Source of the DNA: an uncultured Lachnospiraceae bacterium | GTDB lineage: Bacteria > Bacillota > Clostridia > Lachnospirales > Lachnospiraceae | Assembly (NCBI GenBank): GCA_947567595.1 | Contig: CANOMQ010000025.1 | Span: forward strand, 1 to 58,250 | DNA length: 58,250 nucleotides | Direction of reading: 5' to 3' | Part shown: piece after piece, positions 5,143-46,863 of the stretch | Layout of the letters: each line of letters opens with the position of its first letter | Position numbering within the stretch: position 1 is the first letter of the stretch | Position numbers and translations under genes: made by a program | Notes under the pieces: model-generated | Databases searched by the model: none | Told to the model about the DNA's origin: nothing | The model's input: only the letters and a program-made list of their open reading frames with translations

Positions 5143-6996
5143 ATGAGCATTTTAAAATTAAAACCAAGCTGCAAGGATTATCTGTGGGGCGGAAACAGGC
5201 TGAAAGAAGAGTATGGAAAAGAATATGACGGCGAAGTCCTTGCCGAAACATGGGAACTGTCCTGCCACCCCGACGGTCCGTCCTACATCGTAAACGGCGC
5301 TTACGCAGGCAAAACCCTGCAGCAATATATCGACGGCGAAGGAAAAGAAGTCTTAGGCACACATTGCCGGCGCTTTCGCGACTTCCCGATTTTGACAAAA
5401 TTTATCGACGCAAAAGACAACCTGTCCATACAAGTCCACCCCGACAACCGCTACGCGCTGGAAAACGAAGGGCAGTACGGCAAAACGGAAATGTGGTACG
5501 TCATGGACGCCGGAAAAGACGCGTTTTTGTACTATGGCTTCCAGCAGGAAATCAGCAAGGAAGAATTTGAAAAGCGCATAGAGGAGGACACTTTGCTGGA
5601 GGTGCTCAACGCCGTTCCCGTGCAAAAAGGCGACGTGCTCTTTATTGAATCGGGAACAATCCACGCAATTGGCAAAAACATTTTAATCGCCGAAATCCAG
5701 CAAAATTCCAACGTAACCTACCGCGTATACGATTACGGACGCGTCGGAAAGGACGGAAAAAAGCGCGATTTGCACATCGAAAAAGCGTTAACCGTGACAA
5801 ACCGCGTCCCGATTGTAAAGGATAAAAGCAGCTATCCGCACGTCGCCGACTGTGATTATTTTACGGTCGATAAGCTTAATTTGGACGGAAAAGTCATGAA
5901 AAAAATGGAAGGAAATGTTTCGGAAGAATCCTTTGCAAGTATTCTGTTTTTGGACGGAAAGGGCACGATTTCAGACGACAAAGAGCAGCTTACGTTCCAA
6001 AAAGGCGACAGCTTCTTTCTGACCGCAGGCAGCGGAAATTACACCATTGAAGGCTCATGTGACGCGCTGATTACGACAATCCGCGAAAAAGCCGCGCCTG
6101 TTCGTATCGGCATTGACATCGGCGGAACGGATACGAAAATCGGCTTAGTGGACATTCACCAAAAAATCATCGTCAGTGAAACCATCAAAACCGACGCGTC
6201 GCGCGCACCCGAAGCAGTCATAGCGCAAATCGCCGAAACAACGCTTGCGCTCTTGAAAAAACAAGGCATTTCCTTTGACCAGTGTGTCGGTGTCGGCGTT
6301 GGCGTGCCGGGAACGATTGACCGCAAAAACGGCGTCGTGCGCTATTCCAATAATATCGAATGGGAAAACGTTGCGATTGTGAAACAATTATCAGAGTATT
6401 TTCCGCTCCCAATTCGTATTGCCAACGACGCAGACTGCGCCGCCTTGGGCGAGGCTGTTGCAGGCGCAGGCAAGGATTATCAGGACGTGATTATGCTGAC
6501 GCTCGGCACAGGCGTCGGCGTCGGCATTATCCTTGACGGAAACATTTTCACCGGAAAGGCAGTCGGCGGCAGCGAGCTTGGGCATATCGTCATCGTGGAA
6601 GACGGCGAGCCATGCACCTGCGGCAGAAAAGGCTGTTTAGAGGCATATGCGTCCGCAACCGCGCTTGTCAGGGACGCCAAACGCGCAACAGGAAAAGACC
6701 TGACACCACAGGAAATCTTTGACGCAGCGCAAAACGGCGACGACGCGTTAAAAGAAATTGTTGATTTATACATTCGCAGATTAGGTATTGGAATCGTAAA
6801 CTTTGTCAACATCTTCCGCCCGCAGCTTGTCCTCCTGGGCGGCGGACTCTCCGCACAAGGAAAGACGCTTACGGCACCGCTATACGAAATGATGAAGGAA
6901 GGGTGCTTCGGCAAGGAAAAAAGCGAGCTCCCCGAACTTGCCATCGCCGCGCTCGGTAACCGAGCAGGAATGATTGGCGCAGCAAGCTTGATTTGA
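5143..6996 (+). CDS. Bifunctional mannose-6-phosphate isomerase / ROK-family sugar kinase fusion
   Basis: A 617-residue protein with two complete enzymes. Residues 1-318 form a type I phosphomannose isomerase (short ManA type) with zinc ligands Gln97 and His99 (IQVHPDN), Glu116 (KTEMWYV) and His174 (SGTIHAIG). Residues 320-617 form a ROK kinase with phosphate loop IGIDIGGTDTKIGLVD, GVGVPGTID, a SELGH segment and the zinc motif CTCGRKGCLE. Together they could phosphorylate a hexose and interconvert mannose-6-P and fructose-6-P. The ATG at 5143 is used; the GGAG site is 14 nt away, unusually far. It sits 61 bp after the beta-glucosidase gene. Sugar specificity of the kinase (glucose, fructose or mannose) is not readable. 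Confidence 0.88.
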   Translation: MSILKLKPSCKDYLWGGNRLKEEYGKEYDGEVLAETWELSCHPDGPSYIVNGAYAGKTLQQYIDGEGKEVLGTHCRRFRDFPILTKFIDAKDNLSIQVHPDNRYALENEGQYGKTEMWYVMDAGKDAFLYYGFQQEISKEEFEKRIEEDTLLEVLNAVPVQKGDVLFIESGTIHAIGKNILIAEIQQNSNVTYRVYDYGRVGKDGKKRDLHIEKALTVTNRVPIVKDKSSYPHVADCDYFTVDKLNLDGKVMKKMEGNVSEESFASILFLDGKGTISDDKEQLTFQKGDSFFLTAGSGNYTIEGSCDALITTIREKAAPVRIGIDIGGTDTKIGLVDIHQKIIVSETIKTDASRAPEAVIAQIAETTLALLKKQGISFDQCVGVGVGVPGTIDRKNGVVRYSNNIEWENVAIVKQLSEYFPLPIRIANDADCAALGEAVAGAGKDYQDVIMLTLGTGVGVGIILDGNIFTGKAVGGSELGHIVIVEDGEPCTCGRKGCLEAYASATALVRDAKRATGKDLTPQEIFDAAQNGDDALKEIVDLYIRRLGIGIVNFVNIFRPQLVLLGGGLSAQGKTLTAPLYEMMKEGCFGKEKSELPELAIAALGNRAGMIGAASLI

Positions 6997-7020
6997 TGAG
7001 TGGTACTTATAATTGGAGCA

Positions 7021-7053
7021 AGAATAAAAGGGCGAATACCAGCCCTTTTATTC
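7021..7053. terminator. Bidirectional intrinsic terminator
   Basis: AGAATAAAAGGGC and GCCCTTTTATTCT form a 13-bp stem around a short loop, with T-runs on both strands. It separates the isomerase-kinase gene from the convergent small gene, whose stop codon overlaps it. Confidence 0.8.
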
Positions 7054-7326
7054 TTGTGGTTTTGATAAAGCATTTAGAAATGCATATAGGTCTTTCATAC
7101 CCTGTTGGTAGATTAGCCGTTCTGCACTAATTTCTGTCTCGTTTGTGGCAATAATGAAATCATTGAACAATTCTTTTTGCGTTTCAGATAGTGTTTCCAC
7201 AAGCTTATCATATACTGCCGTTTCGTACATTTTTGCTATCTTATATTCCTCGTTACAATCTAAAATATGATTTAGTCGGTCTTCTGTTAGGCTTTGTGTT
7301 ATCAGCTCAAGCACTTCATTTTCCAT
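7048..7326 (-). CDS. Small DUF6809-like protein, function unknown
   Basis: A 92-residue acidic, largely helical protein. The frame allows an earlier ATG at 7344, but AAAGGAG lies 8 nt before the ATG at 7326, so that start (MENEVLELI) is preferred. The segment YDKLVETLSETQKELFNDF followed by a C-terminal YQQGMKDLYAFL stretch resembles the DUF6809 group of small Firmicute proteins. There is no signal peptide or catalytic motif. It is monocistronic and ends in the shared terminator. The family assignment is tentative. Confidence 0.55.
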   Translation of the reverse strand: MENEVLELITQSLTEDRLNHILDCNEEYKIAKMYETAVYDKLVETLSETQKELFNDFIIATNETEISAERLIYQQGMKDLYAFLNALSKPQE

Positions 7327-7458
7327 CGGGGCTGCTCCTTTCATGCGTGGATACCCCTTTACTATAACATATTACGATATACACGATTAGTGAACTCTTT
7401 TTTTAAATTTTCTGCCCCACCAATAGACATGCGGCAGGGCAGATACAAAACGATATGA

Positions 7459-8919
7459 TTACAGCTTCCCATTCCGCCCTCGCGCTTCTGCCTTCCCCAA
7501 CAGATAAAGAAAAGCAATCGCAGGAATACGAAAAATCGGCACAGCCGTATCATGCTGTACAACCCCGAAATCCTCTAACCGTTTCGTCACCAAAAACGCA
7601 TTCGTCACCTTGGACGTTTTATCCTGACATAATTCAACAATTGCGTCCGCAGCGCCGATATGGGAATTGTTGCGGTATTTGACCTCACAAAGAATTTTCT
7701 GACGGGGAAGCTCAATGACCACATCAACCTCCTTTTGATTATCCTTCGCCTTCCTGAAATATCCAAGCTGCGCCGTGCTGCCCTGATAAAAAGACACAAT
7801 ATGCTTGTAAACGGCAGTTTCTACGATTGCGCCAAGCTCCTTTTCATCGGACAAAACATCGTCAACCATCAGCACCGCATTGCGGATTGCGGCGTCGGCA
7901 ATAAAGATTTTCGGTTTTCCCTTCAATGCGCCCTTACTCCCCACATTCATCGGCTTTGACAAATAAATTAAATTCGACATTTCCAACGCTTCGATATAGC
8001 CTGCAATCGTTGCCACAGAAACGTTTTCCAGCTCCTTAGAAGCAGTTGCCGCATTGAAAATTTCCGTTGCGTTCATGCATAAATATAAAAACAGCTTTTC
8101 CATTAACAAGGGATTACGGATATTGAACAACGTCAACACATCGCGCTTAATCACCTTATCCACCACATCTTCACGCAGCATTCTCTGCGCATAAATATCA
8201 TCATCAGACAATACAAGCTCTGGGAAACCGCCGATTGTCAAATAGCGGTTAAAATGATTTTGCAAAGGCGCAAAATGGCTTATCAAATCGCCAACCTCCG
8301 CCGTATCCAGTTTTACAAGCTCTGAGAGCTTCAAGTCATCAGGAAGCGCAGGCTCCTCCAACGCAAGCAGACGGCAGTACTCATAAAACGACATTGTAGG
8401 GATTTTCAAAACACTCCATCTGCCCGTACCGCTGTCCGTTGAGCCTTTTTCCAATACAGGACTTGCCGAGCCTGTCGCAATCAGACGAATATCCTTCCTG
8501 CTGTCATAAATGACTTTTATCCAAAGCTCCCAGTCACGGGTGTACTGTATCTCGTCAAGAAAGAGATACCGCGTGCCCTCAATCGGAAATAGAAGCTCAT
8601 AAATGGACAATACCTTTTCCACATCGACAAGCTTCAAAACCGGATTGTCAAAGGTTGCATATAAAATATTTTTTGGACAAATCCCTTCCTCGATCAGTTG
8701 GTCAATGATTTGGTACATAATCGTAGTTTTTCCCACGCGCCTGACGCCGGAAAGAACGGCGAAGCGGCGGATACTGTTATGCTTCAAAATTTTAAGCGCT
8801 TCATAATAGCCAAGACGCTTTTGCGGCTTGACCTCTTCCTTAATCGCGGAAGGAGTTCTCCACCACGGATTGTATTGCCGCAGTACCTTGATAATCTGTT
8901 CATCATTTACAATAGACAT
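7459..8919 (-). CDS. AAA-family ATPase with DUF4143 domain
   Basis: A 486-residue protein. N-terminal AAA_14 ATPase: Walker A GVRRVGKTT near residue 60, Walker B YLFLDEIQ. The central and C-terminal DUF4143 region ends in a nuclease-like fold segment (EVDVVIELPRQKILCEVKY) resembling a PD-(D/E)XK core. The start at 8919 is chosen because GGAGG lies 6 nt upstream; the ten codons before it (MEIMLLWRQS) are probably untranslated. These proteins occur in many copies in gut Clostridia and Bacteroidetes. Their role is unsettled, with links to mobile or defence functions suggested. It stands alone with an AT-rich upstream region. Confidence 0.8.
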   Translation of the reverse strand: MSIVNDEQIIKVLRQYNPWWRTPSAIKEEVKPQKRLGYYEALKILKHNSIRRFAVLSGVRRVGKTTIMYQIIDQLIEEGICPKNILYATFDNPVLKLVDVEKVLSIYELLFPIEGTRYLFLDEIQYTRDWELWIKVIYDSRKDIRLIATGSASPVLEKGSTDSGTGRWSVLKIPTMSFYEYCRLLALEEPALPDDLKLSELVKLDTAEVGDLISHFAPLQNHFNRYLTIGGFPELVLSDDDIYAQRMLREDVVDKVIKRDVLTLFNIRNPLLMEKLFLYLCMNATEIFNAATASKELENVSVATIAGYIEALEMSNLIYLSKPMNVGSKGALKGKPKIFIADAAIRNAVLMVDDVLSDEKELGAIVETAVYKHIVSFYQGSTAQLGYFRKAKDNQKEVDVVIELPRQKILCEVKYRNNSHIGAADAIVELCQDKTSKVTNAFLVTKRLEDFGVVQHDTAVPIFRIPAIAFLYLLGKAEARGRNGKL

Positions 8920-9061
8920 AGATTGCCTCCATAATAACATTATTTCCAAAATATAAATATAATAATATAATAATATAGACTATTCTATAAGTATATTATA
9001 ATAATAGTCGAGAGAAAATACAAGTATATTATTTGTTGAAAAATTATCAATAAAAATTGAC

Positions 9062-9092
9062 ACAAAAAAATCGGCATCAAAACCCCGATTTA
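9062..9092 (-). terminator. Terminator of the lux-like operon
   Basis: On the minus strand AATCGG and CCGATT pair around a ten-base loop, followed by T7. A second 9-bp stem, GTATCCCCG/CGGGGATAC (9100-9143), lies between it and the last gene of the operon. Confidence 0.7.
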
Positions 9093-9153
9093 CCAAAACG
9101 TATCCCCGCAGACTGCAAAACAACCGCAATCCCACGGGGATACAAATACAACC

Positions 9154-10410
9154 TTATTTAATTCTCAAATCAAGAATAGGCTTCAGCTTCCCAGTCCGTG
9201 CGTTATACTCTAAATCCTCCGCCTTACACCATTCAACCTTCGGCGGCTCCAGCGTACCATCCGCCAACGCGTCTTTCATAAACGAACGTTCTTGATACAG
9301 CGTGTCTAAAAACCGCTGCGTATAATCGTCCTCCGCGTGCGAAACCGCAATACGGAATGTAAACTGATCCCGCATATCATGCGTGACAACAATCTGATAA
9401 GCATAATATTCAATGCCGCATATTTCCAAGATCGTCCCCACGTCCTCCGGGTACAGGGTAACATAACCGGCTCTCGCCGCCACATTGCTCCTGCCAAGAA
9501 TACGGAACTTACGGTCAACCACGCCCTCCGGTTCCGTATATTCCCCCCTGTCGCCCGCCGGATAACGGATTAAGGGAATGAGCGTCTTAAACAAAGAAGT
9601 GATATAAATATCCCCCTGACGGTTCATCTCCGTGATAACTTCCCCCGTGTCCGGATCAATCAGCTCGAGCTTGCATAAATCCGACATTACACGATGTTCA
9701 TTAAACCCGCACTCCTTCGTATAATACCCGATAGCGCCCCCGTCATTTGACGCATAAGAAATCGAACGGAAGTCAAGCTCCCTGCCAAAAGCCTCGCAGA
9801 ACTGCTTCCTCTGGTCGGGGTACAGCGTTTCTCCCGCGTAATAAACCGTATCCACGGCAAAGCCAGTCAGTTGCTTTTCATCAATATAAGAAACGATTTT
9901 CGTCATTATGGAAGGAACTCCCGCAAGGCAGTCAATCTGATGGTGCAAAAGCGTCTCAACAATCTCCTCCACAGACAAATTTCCCGAAAGATTATACACA
10001 ACCGTCTTGACCGAAGACGAACAAAGCATACTGTATGTAAACAAAAAGCTGGCATACATTCCGCCCGCATAGAACAGGTTTGCAACCTTCATGCCGTTTT
10101 TCAAGCCGCCCTTGGCAAGCATCAGCCCGCTGTACTCACAAATCGTTTCCCATTCCTGTGCAGAATACAACGAATACTTCGGATTGCCCGTCGTGCCGCC
10201 GCTCTTGAAAATCTGCCCGTCTGTCTGTTCCCTTGTTGCGACCGTACCGCCGCGCTCGTCACAGTGCGCCCAAAAATCATCCTGATTTACCAAAGGCAAC
10301 GCCTCAAACGGGGCGTCCTCCGGTATATCACGGTATAAATCGGCATAATATTTCGAATGCTTTCTCGCATAATTCACAATTTCCTCTGCGGAATATATTT
10401 TAATTGCCAT
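9154..10410 (-). CDS. LuxE/PaaK-type adenylate-forming acyl ligase
   Basis: A 418-residue member of the PaaK/LuxE branch of adenylate-forming enzymes, which activate a carboxylic acid as acyl-AMP. The nucleotide-binding loop SGGTTGNPKYS is near residue 70. A GETLYPDQR segment, ISYASNDGGAIGY and RYPAGDRGEY fit the A5-A8 regions, and a C-terminal subdomain ends in TGKLKPILDLR with a candidate catalytic Lys. There is no carrier-protein domain. GGAGG lies 6 nt before the ATG. It is the last gene of the operon, 2 bp after the GNAT-fusion gene. Substrate unknown. Confidence 0.8.
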   Translation of the reverse strand: MAIKIYSAEEIVNYARKHSKYYADLYRDIPEDAPFEALPLVNQDDFWAHCDERGGTVATREQTDGQIFKSGGTTGNPKYSLYSAQEWETICEYSGLMLAKGGLKNGMKVANLFYAGGMYASFLFTYSMLCSSSVKTVVYNLSGNLSVEEIVETLLHHQIDCLAGVPSIMTKIVSYIDEKQLTGFAVDTVYYAGETLYPDQRKQFCEAFGRELDFRSISYASNDGGAIGYYTKECGFNEHRVMSDLCKLELIDPDTGEVITEMNRQGDIYITSLFKTLIPLIRYPAGDRGEYTEPEGVVDRKFRILGRSNVAARAGYVTLYPEDVGTILEICGIEYYAYQIVVTHDMRDQFTFRIAVSHAEDDYTQRFLDTLYQERSFMKDALADGTLEPPKVEWCKAEDLEYNARTGKLKPILDLRIK

Positions 10411-10412
10411 AA

Positions 10413-11831
10413 TTAACCTCCATTTACAATCTCATCTCTTAATTCCTCAAACTCCCCGAAAAGCACCAGCCTGTCGTAGTCAAATTTTTCACCCGGAAGA
10501 AGCTGCATTAGCAGATAGTCCCCGTTTTCGCCTCCCGGTATCACGCCCGATAGTACAAATCCGCTTTCCTTTGCCGCCTCATATCCATAGATACAGCTTG
10601 GAGAACTGAGACAAATCATCAATTCAATCATCTCATTTTTCTTATGAATGGTATCCCGGACAGTATCCTTTAAAAACTGCGCCAAATCTTCCCCCGTCTC
10701 ATTCAAAACGATTCGTGTCATCCGAAGGGTGCTGCTGTCCTCAATCCGAATTTGCGTGTGCTCCGCCTGCTTATAGTCATCACGAATTTCATAGCTCCAT
10801 CCCAGCTTGTCATACACCTTGCGGATAAATGCAGTCAGCTCTTTGGGCGGGTACACAGTGCTTTGCGCATTCTTATCCATGATACGGACACTGGCGCACA
10901 AATCCAGCCGTTCGCCCTTGTTGTATTCGCTTTCCAAATCAGCAGCAATGTAGGACATCAGCAGAGAAGTTGCTGTAAATCCATTGTACAGAACAACCTT
11001 TTGGGATGCTGTGTGGTAAGCAACCGGTTGCCCCATCAATGCCCGGAAATGACGTTCCTCTGCAATTTTGACACAATGCTCCACAAACTTTGAGAACATT
11101 TTCAGCCCCCGGAATTCCTTGCGGATTACCACAGAAGAAATCTCCGGCATTCCTTTGAAAAATTCCGAAAATGAAAGCGCAAAATGTCCCGCTGTCTGTC
11201 CATGATCATTGACAGCCAGAAATGATATAAGCTGTCCCTGTTGTATCGCACGAAGGAAGGAGTCCACATAGTACAGGCTTTCATACCCATACGTATATCC
11301 ATATTCACTGTATATGCAACGGATTGCCTCAATGACATCCTGCTCCGTCTCAACAGTGCGAATGGAGATATTTGTATCAAGCACCTCCATCGGCTGATAA
11401 GGCTCAGGCTTTTTAAAATCCATGGGATTTTTCATACGCTGCCGGACATAAATCCGCTGTCCATCCTTGCCCAGCTTCTCAATACCAATCTCATCCACAC
11501 ATTGGTCCAAGATATAATTGCGCAGCGAAGTCTCATCACTGGCAACACGATTTAAATCATAAGAAAAGTCCTGCCAGCCCGGCACGCCCTTATCCCTTAT
11601 GGATATCTCAAACGATGTCCGGCTGCGGAAAACCTCCACATGCAAAAGTCCCCGGGTTCCCGGATAACAATTCTCAATGCGGATTCTTAAAATCCCGCAC
11701 AGTGCAAACCGCATACGGTTGTACCGGATAATATCTGCCCCAAACTGACTGGCAGCAGAGTCTAAAAAGCTAAGTATTGGAAGGATATATGATTTATCAT
11801 TCCATATTTCAATAGAAACGAGTTTCTCCAT
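10413..11831 (-). CDS. Histidine-kinase-like ATPase / GNAT acetyltransferase fusion
   Basis: A 472-residue soluble protein. Residues 1-135 look like a degenerate RsbW-type HATPase: helices, then a beta hairpin ending in SIRDKGVPGW, similar to the G1 box DxGxG. Residues 150-320 form a GNAT-type acyltransferase core (IRTVETEQDVIEAIRCIYSE; EISSVVIRKEFRGLKMFSKF being the acyl-CoA loop region). The remainder is a second GNAT-like or accessory half. The ATG at 11831 is 13 nt from AAAGGAG, with the same leader words (TGAAAGGAGCACGGTT) as the isomerase-kinase gene. It lies 19 bp after the MATE gene. It may acylate the operon's product or a protein; this is inference. Confidence 0.65.
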   Translation of the reverse strand: MEKLVSIEIWNDKSYILPILSFLDSAASQFGADIIRYNRMRFALCGILRIRIENCYPGTRGLLHVEVFRSRTSFEISIRDKGVPGWQDFSYDLNRVASDETSLRNYILDQCVDEIGIEKLGKDGQRIYVRQRMKNPMDFKKPEPYQPMEVLDTNISIRTVETEQDVIEAIRCIYSEYGYTYGYESLYYVDSFLRAIQQGQLISFLAVNDHGQTAGHFALSFSEFFKGMPEISSVVIRKEFRGLKMFSKFVEHCVKIAEERHFRALMGQPVAYHTASQKVVLYNGFTATSLLMSYIAADLESEYNKGERLDLCASVRIMDKNAQSTVYPPKELTAFIRKVYDKLGWSYEIRDDYKQAEHTQIRIEDSSTLRMTRIVLNETGEDLAQFLKDTVRDTIHKKNEMIELMICLSSPSCIYGYEAAKESGFVLSGVIPGGENGDYLLMQLLPGEKFDYDRLVLFGEFEELRDEIVNGG

Positions 11832-11850
11832 TTTTCTAACCGTGCTCCTT

Positions 11851-13575
11851 TCACCTTACATTTTCCTTCTGATTGCATTCCATACAAATTCTGTTCCACC
11901 CAAGAACCGGACCATACTCTGACCTGTTTTTGAGCGCGTCGAAATCTTCAATATAAGTCTCCAGCCCGCCATGCTCCAAATTGTCCCTTATAAACACTTT
12001 TCGCTCCACATGGTTTACCTCAACCTCAACATATTTCCCCGCCGTCTGATGGGCGCATTTTCCGAGCCCTTTCAAATAATGCTCTGTATCCAGCGCGACC
12101 TCCACGTCAATCGCAGAATCTTCCCGAAGCTGTTTCACAATCTGACCACAAAACTTTGCAAAATCTTCCTTTTCACAGTCACACGTAAAACAGTCCGTCC
12201 CCTTTTCCACAGCAGAATCCAAAAGAAATACGTCTGCGTCGATTCCCTCTTTTTTCATCAGCCCTCTTTTGATGATATCCATCACCAAAAAGACCACAAA
12301 AGACAAAACCTCCGCCATCGTATATGAACCCCACACGCCGTTCATGCCAAACAGTCCTCCCAGCAAAAAAGCACTGCCAAGAAACAGGATAAAACAGCGC
12401 AGGCTCACCAGCGTCGCCGCCATAGAGTTATGCTCCGTCGACTGCAGATAATAGCCGGCAATCACATTGATTGTCATGATAATCATGCTTGTCGAATATA
12501 TCCGCACCGCCACGACCGACTGCTGCAGCAGCATACCGTCACGAATACCAAAAACCGCCGGAACAACGCCCGGAAACAGCTCCAGTAAAACCGTAGCAGT
12601 CCCGCATATCACAATCGTTGCAAGAAATACCAGCCGAAGCGTGTCCTTAATTTTTTTATGACTCTGCTCCCCGTAATAAAGGCTGACCATCGGCTGAATG
12701 GTCTGGCTCAAGCCCTCAAACAGTGCAAGGGAAACCGTATACAGATTAAATACGACCGTATAAACCACCACGCCGTCCGTTCCCGCCAAGCGCATGACAT
12801 AATGGTTCAAAATCAGAATGGACAAAAACTGGTATACAAAGTGCAAAGCCGTACTTGCGCCATTCCTGATAATCCGCACAATCATTCCGCTGACCACGAA
12901 CCGGAAACGCAGGGTATTTTTTTTCGACAGAAAATGCGAGCTAATCACCAAAAGGCTTACAATCTGCCCCAAAACAGTAGCATATGCCGCCCCCGCAACG
13001 CCAAGCTTAAAGACGCCGATAAAGATAATGTCAAAGACAATATTGACAGCAATCGACAAAAACATTCCCACCATAGAAAGCGTAGGACGCCCGTCATTGC
13101 GCACGAAAAACGCAAGCCCGACATTAAACATAAAGAATGGCGCGCTGACAAGAATAATCGTAGAATATGCCCGAACCATATCGAACACATTTTCTCCTGT
13201 GCCGAGCCACACCGGAATTTGGCGGTTCAGACAGATACCTGCCAAAAGAAGCAGCCCGCCTGTTACCGCCATCAGCTCCACCGCGACGCTGAACGCCTCG
13301 CCTGCAGTCTCCTTGTCACCCTTACCCGAATCAATGCTCATGGCAATCGAACCGCCCACCGCATATAATGCGGCGACGGTATTGATAATCATGTAAATCG
13401 GCGTGGAAAACGTAACCACCGACAAGGACAGCTCATCTAAAAAGTGACCAATAATCACAGTATCCGCAAAGGAAGCCAGCGCTGTCGTCAAATTCATCAG
13501 AATGGTAGGAACAAGCATTGTAAAAAAGATGTTCTTTACAATGGGGTTATGTTTATAATAATATGTATTTTCCAC
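11851..13575 (-). CDS. MATE-family efflux transporter with C-terminal ATPase-like domain
   Basis: A 574-residue protein. Residues 1-440 are a twelve-helix MATE cation-coupled exporter (early helices VPTILMNLTTALASFADTVI; FVRNDGRPTLSM typical of the family). Residues 450-574 are cytoplasmic and resemble a degenerate RsbW/HATPase fold (VALDTEHYLKGLGKCAHQTA; EVNHVERKVFIRDN; final GWNRICME), with the glycine-rich ATP lid missing. The start is GTG at 13575 with AAGGAG 5 nt before it, 9 bp after the preceding stop. Such MATE-ATPase fusions occur in Firmicutes. Here it is placed to export the product of the acyl-reductase genes. The soluble partner encoded next carries a similar ATPase-like module. 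Confidence 0.82.
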   Translation of the reverse strand: MENTYYYKHNPIVKNIFFTMLVPTILMNLTTALASFADTVIIGHFLDELSLSVVTFSTPIYMIINTVAALYAVGGSIAMSIDSGKGDKETAGEAFSVAVELMAVTGGLLLLAGICLNRQIPVWLGTGENVFDMVRAYSTIILVSAPFFMFNVGLAFFVRNDGRPTLSMVGMFLSIAVNIVFDIIFIGVFKLGVAGAAYATVLGQIVSLLVISSHFLSKKNTLRFRFVVSGMIVRIIRNGASTALHFVYQFLSILILNHYVMRLAGTDGVVVYTVVFNLYTVSLALFEGLSQTIQPMVSLYYGEQSHKKIKDTLRLVFLATIVICGTATVLLELFPGVVPAVFGIRDGMLLQQSVVAVRIYSTSMIIMTINVIAGYYLQSTEHNSMAATLVSLRCFILFLGSAFLLGGLFGMNGVWGSYTMAEVLSFVVFLVMDIIKRGLMKKEGIDADVFLLDSAVEKGTDCFTCDCEKEDFAKFCGQIVKQLREDSAIDVEVALDTEHYLKGLGKCAHQTAGKYVEVEVNHVERKVFIRDNLEHGGLETYIEDFDALKNRSEYGPVLGWNRICMECNQKENVR

Positions 13576-13584
13576 AATATCTCC

Positions 13585-16056
13585 TTATTCCGGCGTTCTC
13601 CTGTCTACCACGCTCCTGACCTTTCCGCCTCCTGTACTAAGCACAAACGCCTCCCGGCTCTGACGCTGAATGCGTACCACGCCCGTCTTGTCCCTGAGAC
13701 ATTCGTCAATTTCCGGCGAATGCTCCCGAAGCACGGCAAGCGCCGCCTCGTCGTCATATGCAAAATCCTCCTCCACACAGATTGTCATCAGGCTCACCGT
13801 CTCATAATCCAAAAGAATTTGCAGCCAGCCCGTATAATCCATTTTGTCGCCGAAGATGGATTTCAAATTCTTATAATTGATATAGTTTGTCGCAAACTTA
13901 AAAATATCGCCAAACCTTCCAAGAAGCTCAAACCGCGGCGCCATTCTCCCGCACTTGCAAGGCTCTTTCACAAAACGCCCCAAATCACCGATTTCATAGC
14001 GCTTGATTTCCGTATTCTCCTGATCCACAGGCGTCCAAACAAGCCTTCCGGTTTCACCTTCCTCCACCGGCTCGTCGCTGTCCAGCTTTAAGATTTCCAA
14101 ATATTTGCTTGCCACAACATGGTGTTCCCCACCCTCGCAATACGGGCAGGCATATCCCATAGAACCAATCTCGTTACAGCCATACGCAAGCGAACCAATT
14201 CTCTTTATATGGAAGGTATTCTTTAAATAGTCCATCTGCGCCGGGTCAAAATGCTCGCCCGCATACAAAATAGTCTCAATTCCGCCATAAGCGGCAAGAG
14301 TCTCTTTCTGCTCCCGGAACAGCCGCAAAAGATACGTCGGCATTCCCACCAGCACATTCACATGGTTCTGCGTAATTTCCTTTGCCACAAATTCCATATC
14401 CATTTCAGCAGCCATCGGAAGCTGAACGACATCTGCCATTTTCAAAGCTTCATAAATACTGATAAAGCCGCCATACAAATCCCCCGAATAGAAAAGGTTC
14501 ATGCACACGTCTTTTTTGGGGTCAATTCCCGCCGCAATCAAGAACCGCGCGCCCTCCTCATACGTAACCTGCGCATCCTCGTAAGAATGCGGCGCGTATT
14601 TTGCCTTGCCGGAGCTTCCGCCACTCTTTAGCAGCAGATAACCCTGTCCCTCGACCTCCCGTTTTGCCGGGAAATTATCTTTTTTCAGCACCGGAGTCCC
14701 TTCTTCAAAAGGCGCTTTCCCCGGAACGCACATTTCGCTTAACGACATACTTCCCTCGGGAAGGCTGTCATGAATGAGGCTGACACGTTTCAGATACTGC
14801 GTCAGGGCATACCCGCCGTCGTGGGGCTCTCCCGTATATCCGCCCATCATCAGTCCCGGCTCTGTGATACGGTTCACGCCGCCCGCCATCATCAGTTTTC
14901 CAAGCGGCGCAATTTCCTCTCTTCCGCACGCAAGCCCGACACTTTGCAGATAAGAGCGGAACGGTCTTAAGCCCTGAATGAGTTCGTCCCGTCTAATCGC
15001 TTTCACAATCAGCGTGCGGTAAAGCGGGGACGCACACAGCTCATGGTCAAACTGCACAAAAATCCGGCAGCCGTTTCCCTCAAGCAGCTTCGCCTCGCCC
15101 ATCATCTCATCAAGGTAGCACAGCTTCGTCTGCGTGGTAAGCTCTGCCTGCTCTGCCTGCGACATCGGGTGCAGCGGGTAGGTATCGGAAACCTCCTGCA
15201 ATACCGACATGACTTCCTGCGCAAACGAAAGAAGCTTCTCTTTGTCCTCTGTCTCATAAAACACAAGCTGCGGCGCACTGCACGCCTGCTGGTCGTTGAC
15301 GCACACATCTGCCGCCAGTCCCTTCAGACGCTCCCTTGTAACGCCCTTTTTTGTAAAATAGGCAAAGCTGATACGGTTGCCCCACTCGACAATGCGCACG
15401 CCGGAAGGCGCAAGCTTCCGCACACCCTTTGTCGCCGCGTCAGAGCCCCATACCGCAATCGTATTGCACAATGAAAACATGGCGCTTAGCAATCCCTCGT
15501 CCTTTGACGACAAGGGAAATACATAGAAATAAGGGCGGAGCGTCTCGTCCAATTCACAAAGCTTTTCTACAAGCGTCATAGCAACCTTATGCGCGCCGGA
15601 CGCGGTTTTGATGACATTGATATTTCCGGTCAGAATGCCCTCCACAGAGCTGAAAAAGGGAAGCATGGCGTCATTGGAGCTTGTAACGTGCCCCAGCACG
15701 CCTACCGGCATCCAGCCCTCAAATTGCTGTTCTCTTGAAGTTAAACGGTTAATCTCGAACGGAAGCTCTCCCAGCTCCCGTTTTACTTTTTTAAATAATT
15801 CCTGAGCGGAAAGCACCGGAACAGAGTCCTTTTTAATCTGTAACGCTTCCTCCCTCGCAAAGCCTAATTCCATCAGCTCCGGCACAAGAAAATCCTCGTT
15901 GTCCATAAGATAGGCTCCCAGCTTGTCAAGGCTTGCAATCACCCTTCTGATGTCGGGAGTGCCCATCGCCAAATCCTCTATGATACGCTCATAAACGCCG
16001 TCCAAGCACTGTTGCTTCTCCCGCTCTGTCTTAATTCCTCTGATAATACATTCCAT
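13585..16056 (-). CDS. LuxC-type acyl reductase fused to LuxE/PaaK-type acyl ligase
   Basis: An 823-residue fusion. Residues 1-440 match LuxC acyl-CoA/acyl-protein reductase, an aldehyde-dehydrogenase relative that reduces a thioester to an aldehyde with NADPH. GWMPVGVLGHVTSSNDAML starts at 115 and the catalytic Cys259 is in NDQQACSAPQ. Residues 470-823 form a PaaK/LuxE adenylating domain (SGGSSGKAKYAPHS loop; CACPYCEGGE-like region; EIGDLGRF; CKCGRM...GRFGDIFKF). ATG 16056 has an AGGAGGAG site; the frame extends upstream but overlaps luxE. In luminous bacteria LuxC and LuxE are separate subunits of fatty-acid reductase; here they are covalently joined. No luxA/B or luxD homologue is present. 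Confidence 0.85.
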   Translation of the reverse strand: MECIIRGIKTEREKQQCLDGVYERIIEDLAMGTPDIRRVIASLDKLGAYLMDNEDFLVPELMELGFAREEALQIKKDSVPVLSAQELFKKVKRELGELPFEINRLTSREQQFEGWMPVGVLGHVTSSNDAMLPFFSSVEGILTGNINVIKTASGAHKVAMTLVEKLCELDETLRPYFYVFPLSSKDEGLLSAMFSLCNTIAVWGSDAATKGVRKLAPSGVRIVEWGNRISFAYFTKKGVTRERLKGLAADVCVNDQQACSAPQLVFYETEDKEKLLSFAQEVMSVLQEVSDTYPLHPMSQAEQAELTTQTKLCYLDEMMGEAKLLEGNGCRIFVQFDHELCASPLYRTLIVKAIRRDELIQGLRPFRSYLQSVGLACGREEIAPLGKLMMAGGVNRITEPGLMMGGYTGEPHDGGYALTQYLKRVSLIHDSLPEGSMSLSEMCVPGKAPFEEGTPVLKKDNFPAKREVEGQGYLLLKSGGSSGKAKYAPHSYEDAQVTYEEGARFLIAAGIDPKKDVCMNLFYSGDLYGGFISIYEALKMADVVQLPMAAEMDMEFVAKEITQNHVNVLVGMPTYLLRLFREQKETLAAYGGIETILYAGEHFDPAQMDYLKNTFHIKRIGSLAYGCNEIGSMGYACPYCEGGEHHVVASKYLEILKLDSDEPVEEGETGRLVWTPVDQENTEIKRYEIGDLGRFVKEPCKCGRMAPRFELLGRFGDIFKFATNYINYKNLKSIFGDKMDYTGWLQILLDYETVSLMTICVEEDFAYDDEAALAVLREHSPEIDECLRDKTGVVRIQRQSREAFVLSTGGGKVRSVVDRRTPE

Positions 16057-16070
16057 AAATGCTCCTCCTA

Positions 16071-17189
16071 TCAGCGTTTCAACAGCTCGCTTGCTGTAAT
16101 CGCACAACTCTTTCCCTTACTGGTTCCCGCGCGTCCGATGATTTCCATATACGGCGTCTGAATGCCGCAGCCGCACTCCTTGGCGTCATGCAGCACTGCC
16201 ATATCCCCCATCATTACAGACACAGCGGGCACGCTCAGCAAATGGGGCGTAACGAAATTGGCAAATCCCGCCTGCCCGTAAGGCAGCGGCTTTAATGTCT
16301 TTACGTCACGGATAATCAAGCGGCTGTACACCGGAATGTGGAAGTGGTGGTTAGGACACTCAAAATAAGGCACGGAATGCTCTGTCGAGCCGTATCCGTC
16401 CCGGCAGTTCTGCGCCGGAATGCCAAGCATTTCCTCCACCATCGCGTACAATTCGCCCTTGCTAATCTGCTTATCCGCATAACCCTTCCAGCCGCCGCCA
16501 AGCATGGTCATGGACTTCACATTGAGCTTTAACGGACGGTGGTTGGTCTCCTTCATCTGCCTTACCGTGAAATACAAAAAAGACGGAAACCCGAAAATAC
16601 GCACCGGAAGCCCTTGCTTTTCGTATTCCTCCAACGCATTGATGGTTCCGTATACATCAAAATCATGCCCCTGCCCATTGTAGCGCAGGGCAAAAAAGGT
16701 CTCATTTACCGGCGCATAGCTGAGCAGCCCCATATCCGTCTTTGCCGTGCCCAAATCCTTGCTGGTCTGTGCCGGCTCATATGTAAATAGAAGATAGTTT
16801 GTCGGTTCGTCTGACAAAAAACCGAAGTGCCGAAATTCATTCTCGACCATTTTATTCCCAAAATCCAAGCTGTCCTGATCAAAAAACATCTGGCTTTTCT
16901 GCCCGGTAGTCCCCGAGCTTGTGACGTGTTCCACAATCGTGTCCATCGGAACGCTCAGAACCTCGTATTTCTTGAAGAAATTGGCATGAATCGGCGGAAT
17001 TTTGCACAAATCCTCCTCCGTTTGAAGCGCGTCCGGGCTGAACTGCTCCGCCTCCATATACTTCTTAAAAAACGCGTTGTGTTCCATGTGGTGCTTCAGG
17101 CAGCCACGCATTGCCTCCATAAAAATGTTTGATGAGCCTTTCTGATCGTAAATATCATCAAAGGCAATTAATTGTTCTCTCGCTGTCAC
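16071..17189 (-). CDS. LuxE-type acyl-protein synthetase
   Basis: A 372-residue LuxE-family enzyme, which adenylates an acid and transfers it to its own cysteine before handing it to LuxC. The AMP loop is VTSSGTTGQKSQ. An EHVPYF-like segment (GYGSTEHSVPYFECPNHH) and a C-terminal ECGCG...GRAGTSKGKSCAITASELL carry the conserved Cys near the end. The start is set to GTG 17189 (VTAREQLIAF), 7 nt after AAAGGAG; the ATG just upstream is followed at once by a stop, and the longer frame lacks a ribosome site. First gene of the operon; its stop is 14 bp before the LuxC-fusion start. Confidence 0.82.
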   Translation of the reverse strand: MTAREQLIAFDDIYDQKGSSNIFMEAMRGCLKHHMEHNAFFKKYMEAEQFSPDALQTEEDLCKIPPIHANFFKKYEVLSVPMDTIVEHVTSSGTTGQKSQMFFDQDSLDFGNKMVENEFRHFGFLSDEPTNYLLFTYEPAQTSKDLGTAKTDMGLLSYAPVNETFFALRYNGQGHDFDVYGTINALEEYEKQGLPVRIFGFPSFLYFTVRQMKETNHRPLKLNVKSMTMLGGGWKGYADKQISKGELYAMVEEMLGIPAQNCRDGYGSTEHSVPYFECPNHHFHIPVYSRLIIRDVKTLKPLPYGQAGFANFVTPHLLSVPAVSVMMGDMAVLHDAKECGCGIQTPYMEIIGRAGTSKGKSCAITASELLKR

Positions 17190-17271
17190 ATTCCCGCTCC
17201 TTTCCTCAACAATCGTTATAAACAATAGCCTTGTGCTTGATTTTTGTGTTTCAAGCAACTCATATCTATTA

Positions 17272-17280
17272 ATTATAACA
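17272..17280 (-). promoter_or_regulatory. Extended -10 promoter of the lux-like operon
   Basis: The minus strand reads TGTTATAAT, an extended -10 element, about 85 nt before the LuxE start. No good -35 hexamer sits 17 nt upstream, which is tolerated with an extended -10. Confidence 0.45.
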
Positions 17281-17412: not shown

Positions 17413-18105
17413 ATGAACAGGAAACATATTTTACTAATCGAAGACGACCTAAGCCTGATAAACGGTCTGTCCTTCGCAATCCAAAAACAGGGCTACGAAA
17501 TCACAATCGCCCGCACAACCGCAGAAGCCGACGCCATATGGGCGGACAACCGCTTCGATATGGTAATTCTAGACGTATCCCTTCCCGACGGCTCCGGCTT
17601 TGACATTTGCACAAAAATACGACAGACCTCAACCGTCCCAATCCTTTTCCTGACTGCCGCAGATGAGGAAACCGACATCATCATGGGACTCGACATCGGC
17701 GGTGACGACTATATCACAAAACCCTTCAAGCTTGCCGTTCTAATGTCGCGCATCAACGCCCTCCTGCGCCGAAGCAGCAATTTTTATGAAGCGAACACAC
17801 AGCTTATTTCCGGCGGGATACGGATAGACCGTTTAAAAGGAAAAGGATACAAAAACGATACAGAGCTTGACCTGACGGCAGGTGAATACAAGCTCTTATG
17901 TCTTTTTATGGAAAATCCCGACATTATTCTGTCTCCTGAGCAGATTTTAGGAAGACTATGGGACAGCAGCGGTAATTTTGTGGACAACAACACACTCACG
18001 GTATATATCCGCAGACTACGCACCAAAATAGAGGACGAACCAAGCGCCCCCAAACGGATTATCACCGTCCGGCGCATGGGCTACAAATGGAATATATCAG
18101 ATTAA
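17413..18105 (+). CDS. OmpR/PhoB-family response regulator
   Basis: A 230-residue two-component transcription factor. The receiver domain (residues 1-115) has acidic pair Asp11-Asp12, phosphoacceptor Asp54 (VILDVSLPDG) and Lys103 (YITKPF). The winged-helix effector domain (about 130-228) includes LDLTAGEYKLLCLFMENPD, NTLTVYIRRLRTKIE and RRMGYKW. It is co-transcribed with the histidine kinase gene that overlaps its 3' end by 19 bp. The pair resembles VanR/BceR-type systems that control envelope-stress transporters, but no ABC transporter is adjacent. Target unknown. Confidence 0.93.
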   Translation: MNRKHILLIEDDLSLINGLSFAIQKQGYEITIARTTAEADAIWADNRFDMVILDVSLPDGSGFDICTKIRQTSTVPILFLTAADEETDIIMGLDIGGDDYITKPFKLAVLMSRINALLRRSSNFYEANTQLISGGIRIDRLKGKGYKNDTELDLTAGEYKLLCLFMENPDIILSPEQILGRLWDSSGNFVDNNTLTVYIRRLRTKIEDEPSAPKRIITVRRMGYKWNISD

Positions 18106-19187
18106 AGATTGAGAACATACAAATAAGAATGGGAATGAGAATAAAAATGAAAATACTGATAAACAAAAACATAAAGACCCTCTTTGAAACAATCCTGATG
18201 TGCGTACTGGTGTTCTGCTTTGTGTCTATAACCTTTCTGCACATTACAAAAGAACACGCCGCAGTCTGTATTCTGATAACCGCCCTCATTATGGCAGCCG
18301 CAATTCTTGCAGTGTGCTACCATTATTTCGTAAAACAGGACAAATTACTCGAATCGGCTGCCGCGCAGATAACGGACTATATTTCCGGCAACCGCACCGC
18401 CCGCATTCCCTGCAACGAGGAAGGCGAGCTGTACCGCCTGTTCCATGAAATCAACTCCCTCGCCGTCATACTGGGCGCGCATGCGGAAAACGAAGCGAAA
18501 TCAAAAACCTTTTTGCAAAACACCATCTCCGATATTTCCCACCAGCTAAAAACACCCCTCGCCGCCCTTAACATCTACAACGGCATTATACAGGAGGAAG
18601 CCGCCGCCCTCCCGACAATTCGCGACTTCACCATGCGCTGCGAACAGGAGCTGGACAGGATTGAAGCACTCGTACAAAGCCTCTTAAAAATCGCCAAATT
18701 CGACGCAGGCGCCATCATCATGAACAAACAGCAGGAAAACGTATCCGAACTCATAGAAACCGTGCAGGCGCACTTCGCCTTCCGCGCTGCGCAGGAGAAA
18801 AAAGAAATCCACCTGTCAGGCGACGAAACGATAACGCTCTTATGCGACCGGAGCTGGCTCCTAGAAGCGCTCGACAACCTTGTAAAAAATGCCCTCGACC
18901 ACACCAAGGCAGGCGACAGCGTCCACCTCCAATGGAACCGCCTCCCGTCCGTCCTCCGAATCATCGTTAAGGACACAGGAAGCGGCATTCACCCCGAAGA
19001 CCGGTATCACATTTTCAAACGCTTCTACCGCAGCCGCTTCTCCAAAGATACCCAAGGAATCGGTCTCGGACTCCCGCTTGCCAAAGCCATCATCGAAGCC
19101 CATAACGGCACAATCGAAGCCGACAGCGACTTAGGCAGTGGGACGACATTTGTAGTAAACCTTCTGACAGCAGAATACCCTGATTAG
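18087..19187 (+). CDS. Membrane sensor histidine kinase
   Basis: A 366-residue kinase: two predicted membrane helices (about residues 31-53 and 59-80) with almost no extracellular loop, a linker, dimerisation/phosphoacceptor helix ISDISHQLKTPLAALN with His152, then an ATP domain with N box LVKNALDHT, DTGSGI and GIGLGLPLAK. It phosphorylates the adjacent response regulator. Start is uncertain: 18087 gives a 19-bp overlap, while Met codons at 18129, 18135 and 18147 are alternatives and none has a strong ribosome site. Its end overlaps the convergent DUF1266 gene by 4 bp. The tiny loop suggests it senses within or near the membrane. Confidence 0.9.
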   Translation: MEYIRLKIENIQIRMGMRIKMKILINKNIKTLFETILMCVLVFCFVSITFLHITKEHAAVCILITALIMAAAILAVCYHYFVKQDKLLESAAAQITDYISGNRTARIPCNEEGELYRLFHEINSLAVILGAHAENEAKSKTFLQNTISDISHQLKTPLAALNIYNGIIQEEAAALPTIRDFTMRCEQELDRIEALVQSLLKIAKFDAGAIIMNKQQENVSELIETVQAHFAFRAAQEKKEIHLSGDETITLLCDRSWLLEALDNLVKNALDHTKAGDSVHLQWNRLPSVLRIIVKDTGSGIHPEDRYHIFKRFYRSRFSKDTQGIGLGLPLAKAIIEAHNGTIEADSDLGSGTTFVVNLLTAEYPD

Positions 19188-24212: not shown

Positions 24213-24257
24213 TTTGAAAGTCAAAAGATTTGAAACTCAAACATTTTGACTTTCAAA
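24213..24257 (+). promoter_or_regulatory. Three phased FabT-like operator boxes
   Basis: Three 13-bp palindrome-like boxes, TTTGAAAGTCAAA (24213), TTTGAAACTCAAA (24229) and TTTGACTTTCAAA (24245), are spaced exactly 16 bp apart, directly after the promoter. They fit the TTTGA...TCAAA pattern of FabT/MarR-type sites. The likely ligand protein is encoded at the end of the operon. Confidence 0.6.
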
Positions 24258-24320
24258 CAATTTATCAATTTTAATAAATCAAAAAACAAAAATGAAAAAC
24301 AAAAAAGGAGACAAATTATC

Positions 24321-24554
24321 ATGTTAGAAAGAGTAAAGGAAATCATCGAAGAGCAGTTAAACGTTGAAGGCGTGGAAATCACGGAAGCTACCCGTTTCAA
24401 GGAGGACTTGGAGGCGGACTCCCTTGACTTATTCGAGCTTGTGATGGCATTCGAGGAGGAGTACGGCGTAGAAATCCCTTCTGAGGATTTGGAGAAGATT
24501 ACGACGGTTGGCTCCATTATTGACTACATGAAAGCAAAGGGCGTAGACGCATAA
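24321..24554 (+). CDS. acpP: Acyl carrier protein
   Basis: A 77-residue acidic four-helix carrier protein of type II fatty-acid synthesis. The 4'-phosphopantetheine attachment Ser34 lies in [13 protein letters not shown]. The frame is open upstream, but AAAAGGAG before ATG 24321 and the canonical N-terminus ([13 protein letters not shown]) fix the start. It is the first gene of the operon and its TAA overlaps the fabK ATG by one base, so the two are translationally coupled. Confidence 0.95.
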
Positions 24555-25483
24555 TGAAAACAAGAATTACAGAGATTTTAGGAATTGAACATCCTATTAT
24601 ACAGGGCGGCATGGCGTGGGTTGCCACGTATCAGCTTGCGGCGGCTGTCTCAAATGCCGGCGGACTTGGGTTAATCGGCGCGGGCGGCGCGCCGGCTTCC
24701 TTTGTCAGGGAGCAGATTGAGAAGGCGAAGGAGCTGACGGACAAGCCGTTTGGCGTGAACATCATGCTGATGAACCCCGAGGCGGACGAGATTGCCAAGG
24801 TCATTGTGGACGAGGGCGTAAAGGTTGTTACCACAGGCGCGGGCAATCCGGCGAAGTATATGGAGATGTGGAAGGCGGCGGGTGTGAAGGTCATTCCCGT
24901 TGTCGCAAGTGTGGCAATGGCGAAGCTGATGGAGCGCGGCGGTGCGGACGCGGTGGTCGCGGAGGGCACGGAAAGCGGCGGTCACATCGGTTCAACGACG
25001 ACAATGGCGCTTGTGCCGCAGGTTGTGGACGCGGTGAGCATTCCGGTGATTGCGGCAGGCGGTATCGCGGACGGCAGGGGCTTTGCGGCGGCATTTATGC
25101 TCGGCGCGGAGGGCGTGCAGCTTGGTACGCGCTTTGTCGTGGCGACGGAGTCGATTGTGCATGAGAAGTACAAGGCAATGTTAATCAAGGCAAAGGACAT
25201 CGATTCGGCAGTCACGGGACTTTCGACAGGGCACCCCGTTCGGAGTATCCGCAACAAGATGACAAAGGAATATTTAAAGCTGGAAAAAGAGGGCGCGGAC
25301 TTTATGGAGCTTGAGAAAATGACGCTTGGCTCCCTGCGCAAGGCAGTCGTGGAAGGCGATGTCGTAAACGGCACGGTGATGGCAGGTCAGATTGCGGGAC
25401 TTGTCAAGAAGGAACAGCCCTGTAAGGAAATCATCGACGAAATTATGTCGGAGGGCATGGAATTATTAAACAAAACATTTTAA
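24554..25483 (+). CDS. fabK: Enoyl-ACP reductase II (FabK)
   Basis: A 309-residue FMN-dependent TIM-barrel enoyl-ACP reductase that completes each elongation cycle, replacing FabI in many Firmicutes. It opens with ILGIEHPIIQGGMAWVA. GGHIG (residues around 140-144) and the phosphate-binding IAAGGIADGRG and GAEGVQLGTRF segments are typical. It lies between acpP and fabD as in streptococci and clostridia. FabK enzymes are naturally insensitive to triclosan. Confidence 0.93.
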   Translation: MKTRITEILGIEHPIIQGGMAWVATYQLAAAVSNAGGLGLIGAGGAPASFVREQIEKAKELTDKPFGVNIMLMNPEADEIAKVIVDEGVKVVTTGAGNPAKYMEMWKAAGVKVIPVVASVAMAKLMERGGADAVVAEGTESGGHIGSTTTMALVPQVVDAVSIPVIAAGGIADGRGFAAAFMLGAEGVQLGTRFVVATESIVHEKYKAMLIKAKDIDSAVTGLSTGHPVRSIRNKMTKEYLKLEKEGADFMELEKMTLGSLRKAVVEGDVVNGTVMAGQIAGLVKKEQPCKEIIDEIMSEGMELLNKTF

Positions 25484-25539
25484 GATAAATACAAACATAT
25501 GTTTGAAAAGTATCCTTATAAAAAAGAAAGGCATATAAA

Positions 25540-26445: not shown

Positions 26446-26446
26446 A

Positions 26447-27187: not shown

Positions 27188-27213
27188 AGGCTCTGAATGG
27201 AGGATATTGAGGA

Positions 27214-28449: not shown

Positions 28450-28454
28450 AAAGT

Positions 28455-28532
28455 TTAAAACTGACACGCGTGTCATAATTAAAACTGACACGCGTGTCAT
28501 AATGAGAATACAGGAAGGTGACACATATGTCA
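28455..28532 (+). repeat. 24-bp perfect tandem repeat of a TGACACGCGTGTCA palindrome before fabZ
   Basis: TTAAAACTGACACGCGTGTCATAA occurs twice head to tail (28455-28478, 28479-28502). A third, imperfect version TGACACATATGTCA (28519-28532) spans the fabZ start codon. It could be a regulatory site or an RNA hairpin near the ribosome site. Confidence 0.65.
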
Positions 28533-28958: not shown

Positions 28959-28994
28959 AAGCCCGGAAATAAAAAGAAAAGAGGTTAGGCTGTT

Positions 28995-30752: not shown

Positions 30753-30791
30753 TTCTGTATCAGAAAGGCTTAAAAAAGAAGGATTAATCGC

Positions 30792-46749: not shown

Positions 46750-46863
46750 TATACAATAAATTATTAAATATTAAAAATTTATAAACCTGTTGGAGGCGGG
46801 CATGGTTTAGTGTTTAATACGGGGCTATGTCTGCTATTTTTCACAGGAAAGGGAGGAAATCTT

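Follow-up and report, generated by a model that had tools for sequence, protein, structure and literature searches.

The window analyzed here is positions 1-58,250 of contig CANOMQ010000025.1 (GCA_947567595.1; 58,250 nt) from an uncultured Lachnospiraceae bacterium, and coordinates refer to it unless another locus is named. Five open reading frames (ORFs), all on the minus strand, occupy positions 9154-17258 and encode a LuxE-type protein, a LuxC reductase fused to a PaaK-type ligase, a MATE exporter, a GNAT acyltransferase, and a second PaaK-type ligase (PaaK2) (Table 1). The tight minus-strand spacing of these genes had been proposed from the DNA letters alone (hereafter, the sequence-only reading), and the ORF listing of the window confirmed it: the five-gene operon is real, with intergenic gaps of 14, 9, 19, and 2 bp from LuxE toward PaaK2. 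These gaps apply once two gene starts in that reading have been corrected by reference to homologues and to ribosome-binding sites seen by eye. LuxE begins at GTG 17189 and not at 17258, as homologues gave no backing to the longer ORF, and LuxC-PaaK begins at ATG 16056; the two genes therefore do not overlap.

Table 1. Operon features in the window and extra genes in two related cassettes
Feature	Position	Strand	Basis
LuxE-type acyl-protein synthetase, 372 aa, GTG start	16071..17189	-	Pfam LuxE, 7xc6 alignment, Cys362
LuxC acyl reductase with C-terminal PaaK-type adenylating domain, 823 aa, ATG start	13585..16056	-	Pfam, 7xc6_A alignment
MATE exporter (about residues 1-440) with degenerate RsbW-fold tail (441-574)	11851..13575	-	
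Degenerate RsbW-fold domain (about 1-135), GNAT acyltransferase (about 153-325), and C-terminal region, 472 aa	10413..11831	-	
PaaK2, second PaaK-type ligase, 418 aa, with glycine-rich loop and C-terminal lysine	9154..10410	-	
Likely intrinsic terminator, two hairpins and U-run	9058..9153	-	RNA fold; absent from consensus scanner list
Possible extended -10 element TGTTATAAT	17272..17280	-	Read from sequence; unproven; absent from scanner list
Extra genes inside cassette	L005 13202-17280, L013 13239-17317		

The operon had also been assigned a single promoter and a single terminator, and these two signals fared differently. A terminator is likely because the RNA of 9058-9153 folds strongly (-36.8 kcal/mol, z -5.04, equaled by 0 of 200 shuffles) and has a U-run at its end; it is missing from the list of the consensus scanner, whose terminators numbered 10 in the window against 9.3 in shuffles. 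The extended -10 element TGTTATAAT is present as read, and it is a possible candidate for an operon promoter that is unproven: the scanner placed no promoter at 17280-17272, and its promoter count for the window (17, against 11.9 in shuffles, standard deviation 3.6) was not clearly higher.

Families and catalytic residues of the five proteins

Pfam placed the first protein in LuxE (PF04443, 1.3e-35), the N-terminal part of the fusion in LuxC (PF05893, 1e-75), and the exporter in MatE (1.2e-27). Matches to AMP-binding in the fusion (2.3e-6; 27.1 bits, cut-off 29.9) and in PaaK2 (1.8e-6; 27.4 bits, cut-off 29.9), and to GNAT in the acyltransferase (0.0015; 19.2 bits, cut-off 20.7), fell just under threshold; we accept them because they are backed by PaaK structures, by PaaK-type models of NCBIfam (themselves below cut-off), and by the GNAT fold. 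Profile comparison matched both ligase domains to PaaK structures (best E for PaaK2, 5.9e-15), and the PaaK-like synthetase model BagE/FevW of NCBIfam matched both weakly and far below its cut-off (1.1e-10 and 1e-6). The three acyl-activating domains of the sequence-only reading, namely LuxE, the fused PaaK domain, and PaaK2, held up in Pfam, in structure comparison, and in their kept motifs, as did its description of the operon as luciferase-free, with no luciferase found among the five genes by Pfam.

The catalytic residues are kept. Against the Lux fatty acid reductase of luminous bacteria (PDB 7xc6), the LuxE protein aligned with E 4.7e-19, its Cys362 in register with the cysteine of the 7xc6_E KGC, and LuxC aligned with E 3.9e-11, its DQQAC motif matched to that of 7xc6_A. 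We take the C-terminal Cys362 of LuxE and the DQQAC cysteine of LuxC to be the acyl sites of the two enzymes. Cys362 was invariant in 10/10 close rows and kept in all 11 rows of a wider set; in the fusion protein, the LuxC cysteine, the glycine-rich loop, and the C-terminal GK lysine were all kept in 11/11 rows; and the loop and lysine of PaaK2 were present in 9/9. The fused PaaK domain also carries a CxxC...CxC motif, of which the second cysteine pair was retained in 11/11 rows and the first was complete in the 7 rows from Clostridia, its second cysteine being missing in the 4 Salmonella and Streptomycete rows.

That PaaK structures score near the top for both ligase domains would suit an aryl-acid route, in which these domains activate phenylacetate- or benzoate-like acids, LuxC converts them to aryl aldehydes, GNAT acylates, and MATE exports. 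We consider such a route distinctly unlikely: the ligase domains did not reach the NCBIfam PaaK equivalog cut-offs, a PaaK fold does not by itself set the substrate, and LuxE would be left unexplained.

A conserved cassette in Clostridia and on plasmids

The sequence-only reading had proposed looking for co-occurrence of the five families in other Clostridia, and the idea survived that check. Scanning genome contigs with the fusion protein yielded 10 loci, of which L009, L010, and L012, cut by contig ends, are left out here. With the window, L073, and L074 added, the loci with complete neighborhoods number ten (the window, L005, L006, L007, L008, L011, L013, L014, L073, and L074); the near-identical L005 and L013 are both counted. 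LuxE, LuxC-PaaK, GNAT, and PaaK2 occurred together in all ten and MATE with its tail in nine, the exception being L014. Clustering of ORFs of at least 80 aa (BLASTP, 1e-6) revealed no family beyond the five in at least 3 of the ten loci; the MATE and GNAT of L007, masked there by an opposite-strand ORF, were recovered by tblastn. This co-occurrence rules out a reading of the genes as chance neighbors: the gene set is a real, conserved cassette. By comparison, in 14 loci where LuxC is not fused and long flanks are available (L087-L092, L118-L123, L145, and L146), LuxE lay next to LuxC in every case, this GNAT or PaaK2 in none (BLAST, 1e-4), and weak MATE-type matches appeared in three (L088, L119, and L122).

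The distance matrices of the five families correlated with r of 0.88-0.97 when the most distant locus, L074, was included and 0.70-0.91 when it was not; L074 belongs to another family of the order, with identities to the window proteins of 69% (LuxE), 48 and 54% (fusion halves), 40% (MATE), 33% (GNAT), and 41% (PaaK2). The ratio of nonsynonymous to synonymous substitution rates (dN/dS) between the window and L014 was 0.042-0.079 across the four genes present in L014; the remaining pairs had saturated dS. Gene order varies between loci: L005 and L013 have PaaK2 and GNAT ahead of MATE, and between them lie an ORF of 431 aa, a kinase of the APH type, and another MATE, this one with an HATPase tail. 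The 431-aa ORF has no Pfam match and bears an HxxxDG motif by eye. As for the window's own neighbors, its two-component genes (17413-19187), fatty acid synthase genes, AAA ATPase, and DUF1266 gene were considered as cassette parts and rejected, with no tblastn match at 1e-3 near the cassettes of nine relatives.

The LuxC-PaaK fusion is rare. At the family level, 54 of 299 genomes had a LuxC match and the fusion was seen in 2 (G000 and G125), a count that leaves out two other frames, one of 788 aa in G021 and one of 668 aa in G115. At the class level, a full-length fusion was found in 5/391 genomes, among which G987 has the MFS type; in G639 a fusion fragment lay at a contig end. At the phylum level, 4/398 genomes matched at 1e-40, with the fusion in the window's genome only. 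A GNAT profile, run at the order level, matched 27 of 392 genomes, mostly weakly or over a single domain, and led to L074, L080, and L081. The last two, from two further genomes, hold a four-gene variant composed of an MFS exporter, GNAT, LuxE, and LuxC-PaaK. L117 resembles this MFS variant; a single ORF at its positions 5975-7609 combines GNAT (Pfam) with a partial MFS match (BLAST only), so that it represents either a fused exporter and acyltransferase or a disrupted MFS gene.

Activation, reduction, acylation, and export make a coherent set, as the sequence-only reading had it, and this set extends beyond Clostridia. Six of 72,556 plasmid records carried at least 80% of the fusion: four from Streptomycetes (one strain twice) and two conjugative IncF plasmids of Salmonella enterica, of which two Salmonella and three Streptomycete records were examined in detail. 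In Streptomyces sp. NBC_00158, the order is PaaK-type ligase, MFS transporter, GNAT, LuxE, and then LuxC-PaaK; the first four genes each overlap the next by 4 bp, and LuxC-PaaK follows after a 2-bp gap. The other two Streptomycete records have the same five genes (tblastn). Both Salmonella plasmids (L147, CP054717.1; L148, CP053580.1) encode LuxE, LuxC-PaaK, PaaK2, and GNAT, the last split into two ORFs on L148 and matching the GNAT profile at 8.8e-19, and on both a 121-aa ORF without a Pfam match, hydrophobic by eye, precedes the cassette. A comparison of the Salmonella and Streptomyces proteins with NCBIfam (1e-10) pointed to no named pathway, and 20,395 Escherichia coli records contained no near match to the Salmonella cassette. 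The exporter is exchangeable, MATE or MFS, and the cassette is probably mobile. Separately, the Salmonella cassettes were seen to lie near recombinase and toxin-antitoxin genes of the conjugative plasmids, and 1 of 50,697 phage records (MT835565.1, from human faecal samples) has at 13041-14096 a stretch resembling LuxC that spans 43% of the fusion with 30% identity.

The MATE superfamily includes flippases, and in L074 a polysaccharide-flippase-type gene adjoins the cassette; both would be in keeping with modification of the cell surface or of proteins, in which the reductase product is joined to a lipid or glycan and flipped by the MATE-superfamily protein, rather than with a secreted metabolite. 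We regard this as very unlikely, given that MFS takes the place of MATE elsewhere and that no sugar or glycan gene recurs, no sixth family having been found in the clustering above.

RsbW-like domains on the exporter and acyltransferase

The sequence-only reading had called the MATE tail and the N-terminal domain of the GNAT protein ATPase-like, and its description holds for the fold: both are predicted to adopt the GHKL fold of RsbW/SpoIIAB. The HATPase-type assignment of the MATE tail rests on this predicted fold, because comparison of sequence profiles gave a probability of just 3.4% with E 0.013. Where catalysis is concerned, the description probably fails. When aligned with six intact HATPase rows, the complete N-box (E-E...N) was found in 0/10 GNAT N-domains and 0/10 MATE tails; its Asn alone occurred in one N-domain (L008) and in none of the tails, and in another alignment the L008 MATE tail carries an Asn at the N-box column. 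With the ATP-binding N-box degenerate in both, an intact-ATPase reading is ruled out, and the two RsbW/SpoIIAB-fold parts are probably not ATPases. The domain is absent from the GNAT of L074, and the Salmonella and Streptomyces GNATs start with the GNAT domain itself, or close to it, and could not accommodate an RsbW-like one. Beyond the GNAT domain, the C-terminal region of the window protein may be a second GNAT-like half.

We suggest that the degenerate domains are probably protein-binding and would either link the exporter with the acyltransferase or, alternatively, place both under the control of the STAS protein of a SpoIIE partner-switching system. If true, dead RsbW-type domains on an exporter and an acyltransferase would represent an unusual use of partner switching beyond the control of sigma factors.

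Two further loci group related parts. L078 (6163-11408) has HATPase, MATE, GNAT, Cache-SpoIIE, and STAS-like ORFs side by side and no Lux genes, its GNAT being a distant relative of that in the window. L143 (7421-12855), on contig 48 of the window's genome, encodes SpoIIE, an RsbW-type HATPase, an STAS-APH-type kinase fusion, a MATE with an intact HATPase tail, and an STAS-like ORF, and from this gene content it reads as a partner-switching module arranged around an exporter. The HATPase of these modules retains its N-box, whereas both window domains are degenerate; next to the window operon, neither SpoIIE nor STAS was observed.

These modules, together with the STAS and SpoIIE-HATPase genes directly upstream of the cassette in L005 and L013, would suit a signal system, in which the compound serves chiefly for signaling and its production and export are read or gated by the RsbW-like domains jointly with SpoIIE and STAS. 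Such a system is nonetheless improbable: BLAST with the L005 proteins found no SpoIIE or STAS in the seven other complete-neighborhood relatives, the five SpoIIE matches in the window's genome sit on contigs other than the window's, and, as noted, the Salmonella and Streptomyces GNATs have no room for an RsbW-like domain.

A candidate route to an N-acylated aldehyde

We tentatively favor a reading in which this is a cross-phylum mobile cassette that makes and exports an N-acylated small-molecule aldehyde, or an alcohol or pyrazinone derived from it, without a nonribosomal peptide synthetase (NRPS). The most likely product class would be a short N-acyl peptide aldehyde of the protease-inhibitor type. 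In such a route, GNAT would cap a building block at its amine; both PaaK-type ligases would activate carboxylates as acyl-AMP, each forming one amide (or thioester) bond; LuxE would activate the finished acid and hold it on Cys362; LuxC would take over the acyl group through a cysteine of its own, reducing it to the aldehyde with a nicotinamide cofactor; and MATE, or MFS in other lineages, would export the aldehyde product. The three activating domains would fit two amide bonds and one reduction. To make a fatty aldehyde, nothing beyond LuxE and LuxC would be needed; two more ligases and a GNAT point to a product built from several pieces, and suggest that the acid is first assembled from capped building blocks. 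We infer the specific chemistry, including the acid and whether an aldehyde or an alcohol is released.

The closest enzymatic relatives raise the alternative of a fatty aldehyde or alcohol route as in luminous bacteria, run without light: LuxE and LuxC would reduce a fatty acid, the PaaK-type enzymes would give acyl-CoA, GNAT would acylate an amine, and MATE would export the lipid. LuxE and LuxC do match the Lux families and the solved 7xc6 pair, with the acyl-carrying cysteines aligned, and 7 kb from the operon, at 24246-32830 on the plus strand, there is a fatty acid synthase cluster (Pfam), with genes for acyl carrier protein, an enoyl-reductase-type NMO-family protein, FabD, FabG, FabF, FabZ, a fused carboxyltransferase, and FabH. 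Yet 7 proteins of the window's fatty acid synthase cluster all lack a match (tblastn, 1e-3) in 13-19 kb of each of the nine relatives, and both Lux-type proteins fall far under the NCBIfam long-chain equivalog cut-offs (LuxC 56.5 of 750 bits, LuxE 92.4 of 550). Unlike the Lux system, the operon has no luciferase or LuxD-type gene among its five; its LuxC is fused to a PaaK-type ligase, and it adds a second ligase, a GNAT, and an exporter. The two additional ligases would go unexplained. We judge this route unlikely.

For the favored peptide aldehyde, the nearest NRPS-free precedent known to us is the leupeptin operon of Klebsiella, reportedly described in Angew Chem in 2020. The product of the leupeptin operon is Ac-Leu-Leu-argininal. 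The leupABCD operon of Klebsiella comes with a transporter, and in strain CAV1374 (CP011636.1, locus tags AB185_06775 to AB185_06790) the cluster spans 315,353-321,183, or 5,831 bp (PMC8283571). A likeness may lie in four biosynthetic genes with an adjacent transporter and in size, which is weak evidence: LuxE through GNAT take up 5,759 bp on the Salmonella plasmid. In contrast, the window operon measures 8 kb with MATE inside it, and the leupA primer encodes an N-terminus unlike that of the Salmonella or window LuxE. A pyrazinone derived from leupeptin activates a human histamine receptor (PMC11480411).

Two other described clusters share part of the logic. The plasmid-borne Livipeptin cluster of Streptomyces lividans combines ligation, reduction, and N-acylation toward a proposed small peptide aldehyde (PMC10548850); ligation, N-acylation, and reduction in the cassette would follow the same logic, whereas Livipeptin production involves an NRPS-like protein as well as a tRNA-using enzyme, and the five genes here include no counterpart of either. 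The OaaA/OaaACP/OaaC fatty acid amide cluster of a gut Clostridium has a free-standing acid-activating enzyme that makes small gut amides (PMC13142362), along with a carrier protein and a condensation domain that the window operon does without (Pfam). An NRPS with a terminal reductase domain is likewise not indicated, Pfam having detected neither a carrier nor a condensation domain among the five. Overall, the cassette resembles known aldehyde- and amide-forming clusters and departs from Lux, Oaa-type, and NRPS-type clusters in features tested as defining. No described system with this gene set was among the literature matches listed, which covered titles and abstract openings and left most subscription papers outside their scope.

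Several observations weigh against the favored N-acylated aldehyde. We infer every reaction, its substrates and product, and the role of the RsbW-like domains from gene content. To our knowledge, the LuxE and LuxC relatives with known function all act on fatty acids. L014 has no adjacent MATE, and SpoIIE and STAS adjoin the cassette in just 2/10 loci (the near-identical L005 and L013) and not at the window. The Streptomyces GNAT was not picked up by the GNAT profile, so its membership rests on position and on its own Pfam match (2.6e-5). An attempt to identify the cassette directly as the leup operon, using the published leupA and leupB primers, gave no match better than in shuffled DNA: across five plasmid loci the best sites had 4-9 mismatches on either strand, against 5-8 in shuffled L147 DNA, and the 4-mismatch site lies outside the cassette. 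The comparison argues against near identity; being blind to distant homology, it says nothing on more remote kinship.

A broader proposal, which we hold to be doubtful, is that NRPS-free aldehyde-forming clusters constitute an undescribed, horizontally spread class common to gut Clostridia, Streptomyces, and Salmonella plasmids, to which Clostridia would have added dead RsbW-type switch domains, fused to the acyltransferase and exporter and either coupling synthesis and export physically or gating them through partner switching. Peptide aldehydes and their pyrazinones are protease inhibitors and signals, and a compact NRPS-free cassette in three phyla, including Clostridia of the mammal gut, that is missed by NRPS-based mining would be a possible source of such compounds.

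In the window as a whole, neither a tRNA nor any Rfam match at the gathering threshold was detected. At 46810-54579, the plus strand carries a 2,589-aa ORF with matches to bacterial Ig-like domains (Big_2), possibly a surface protein.

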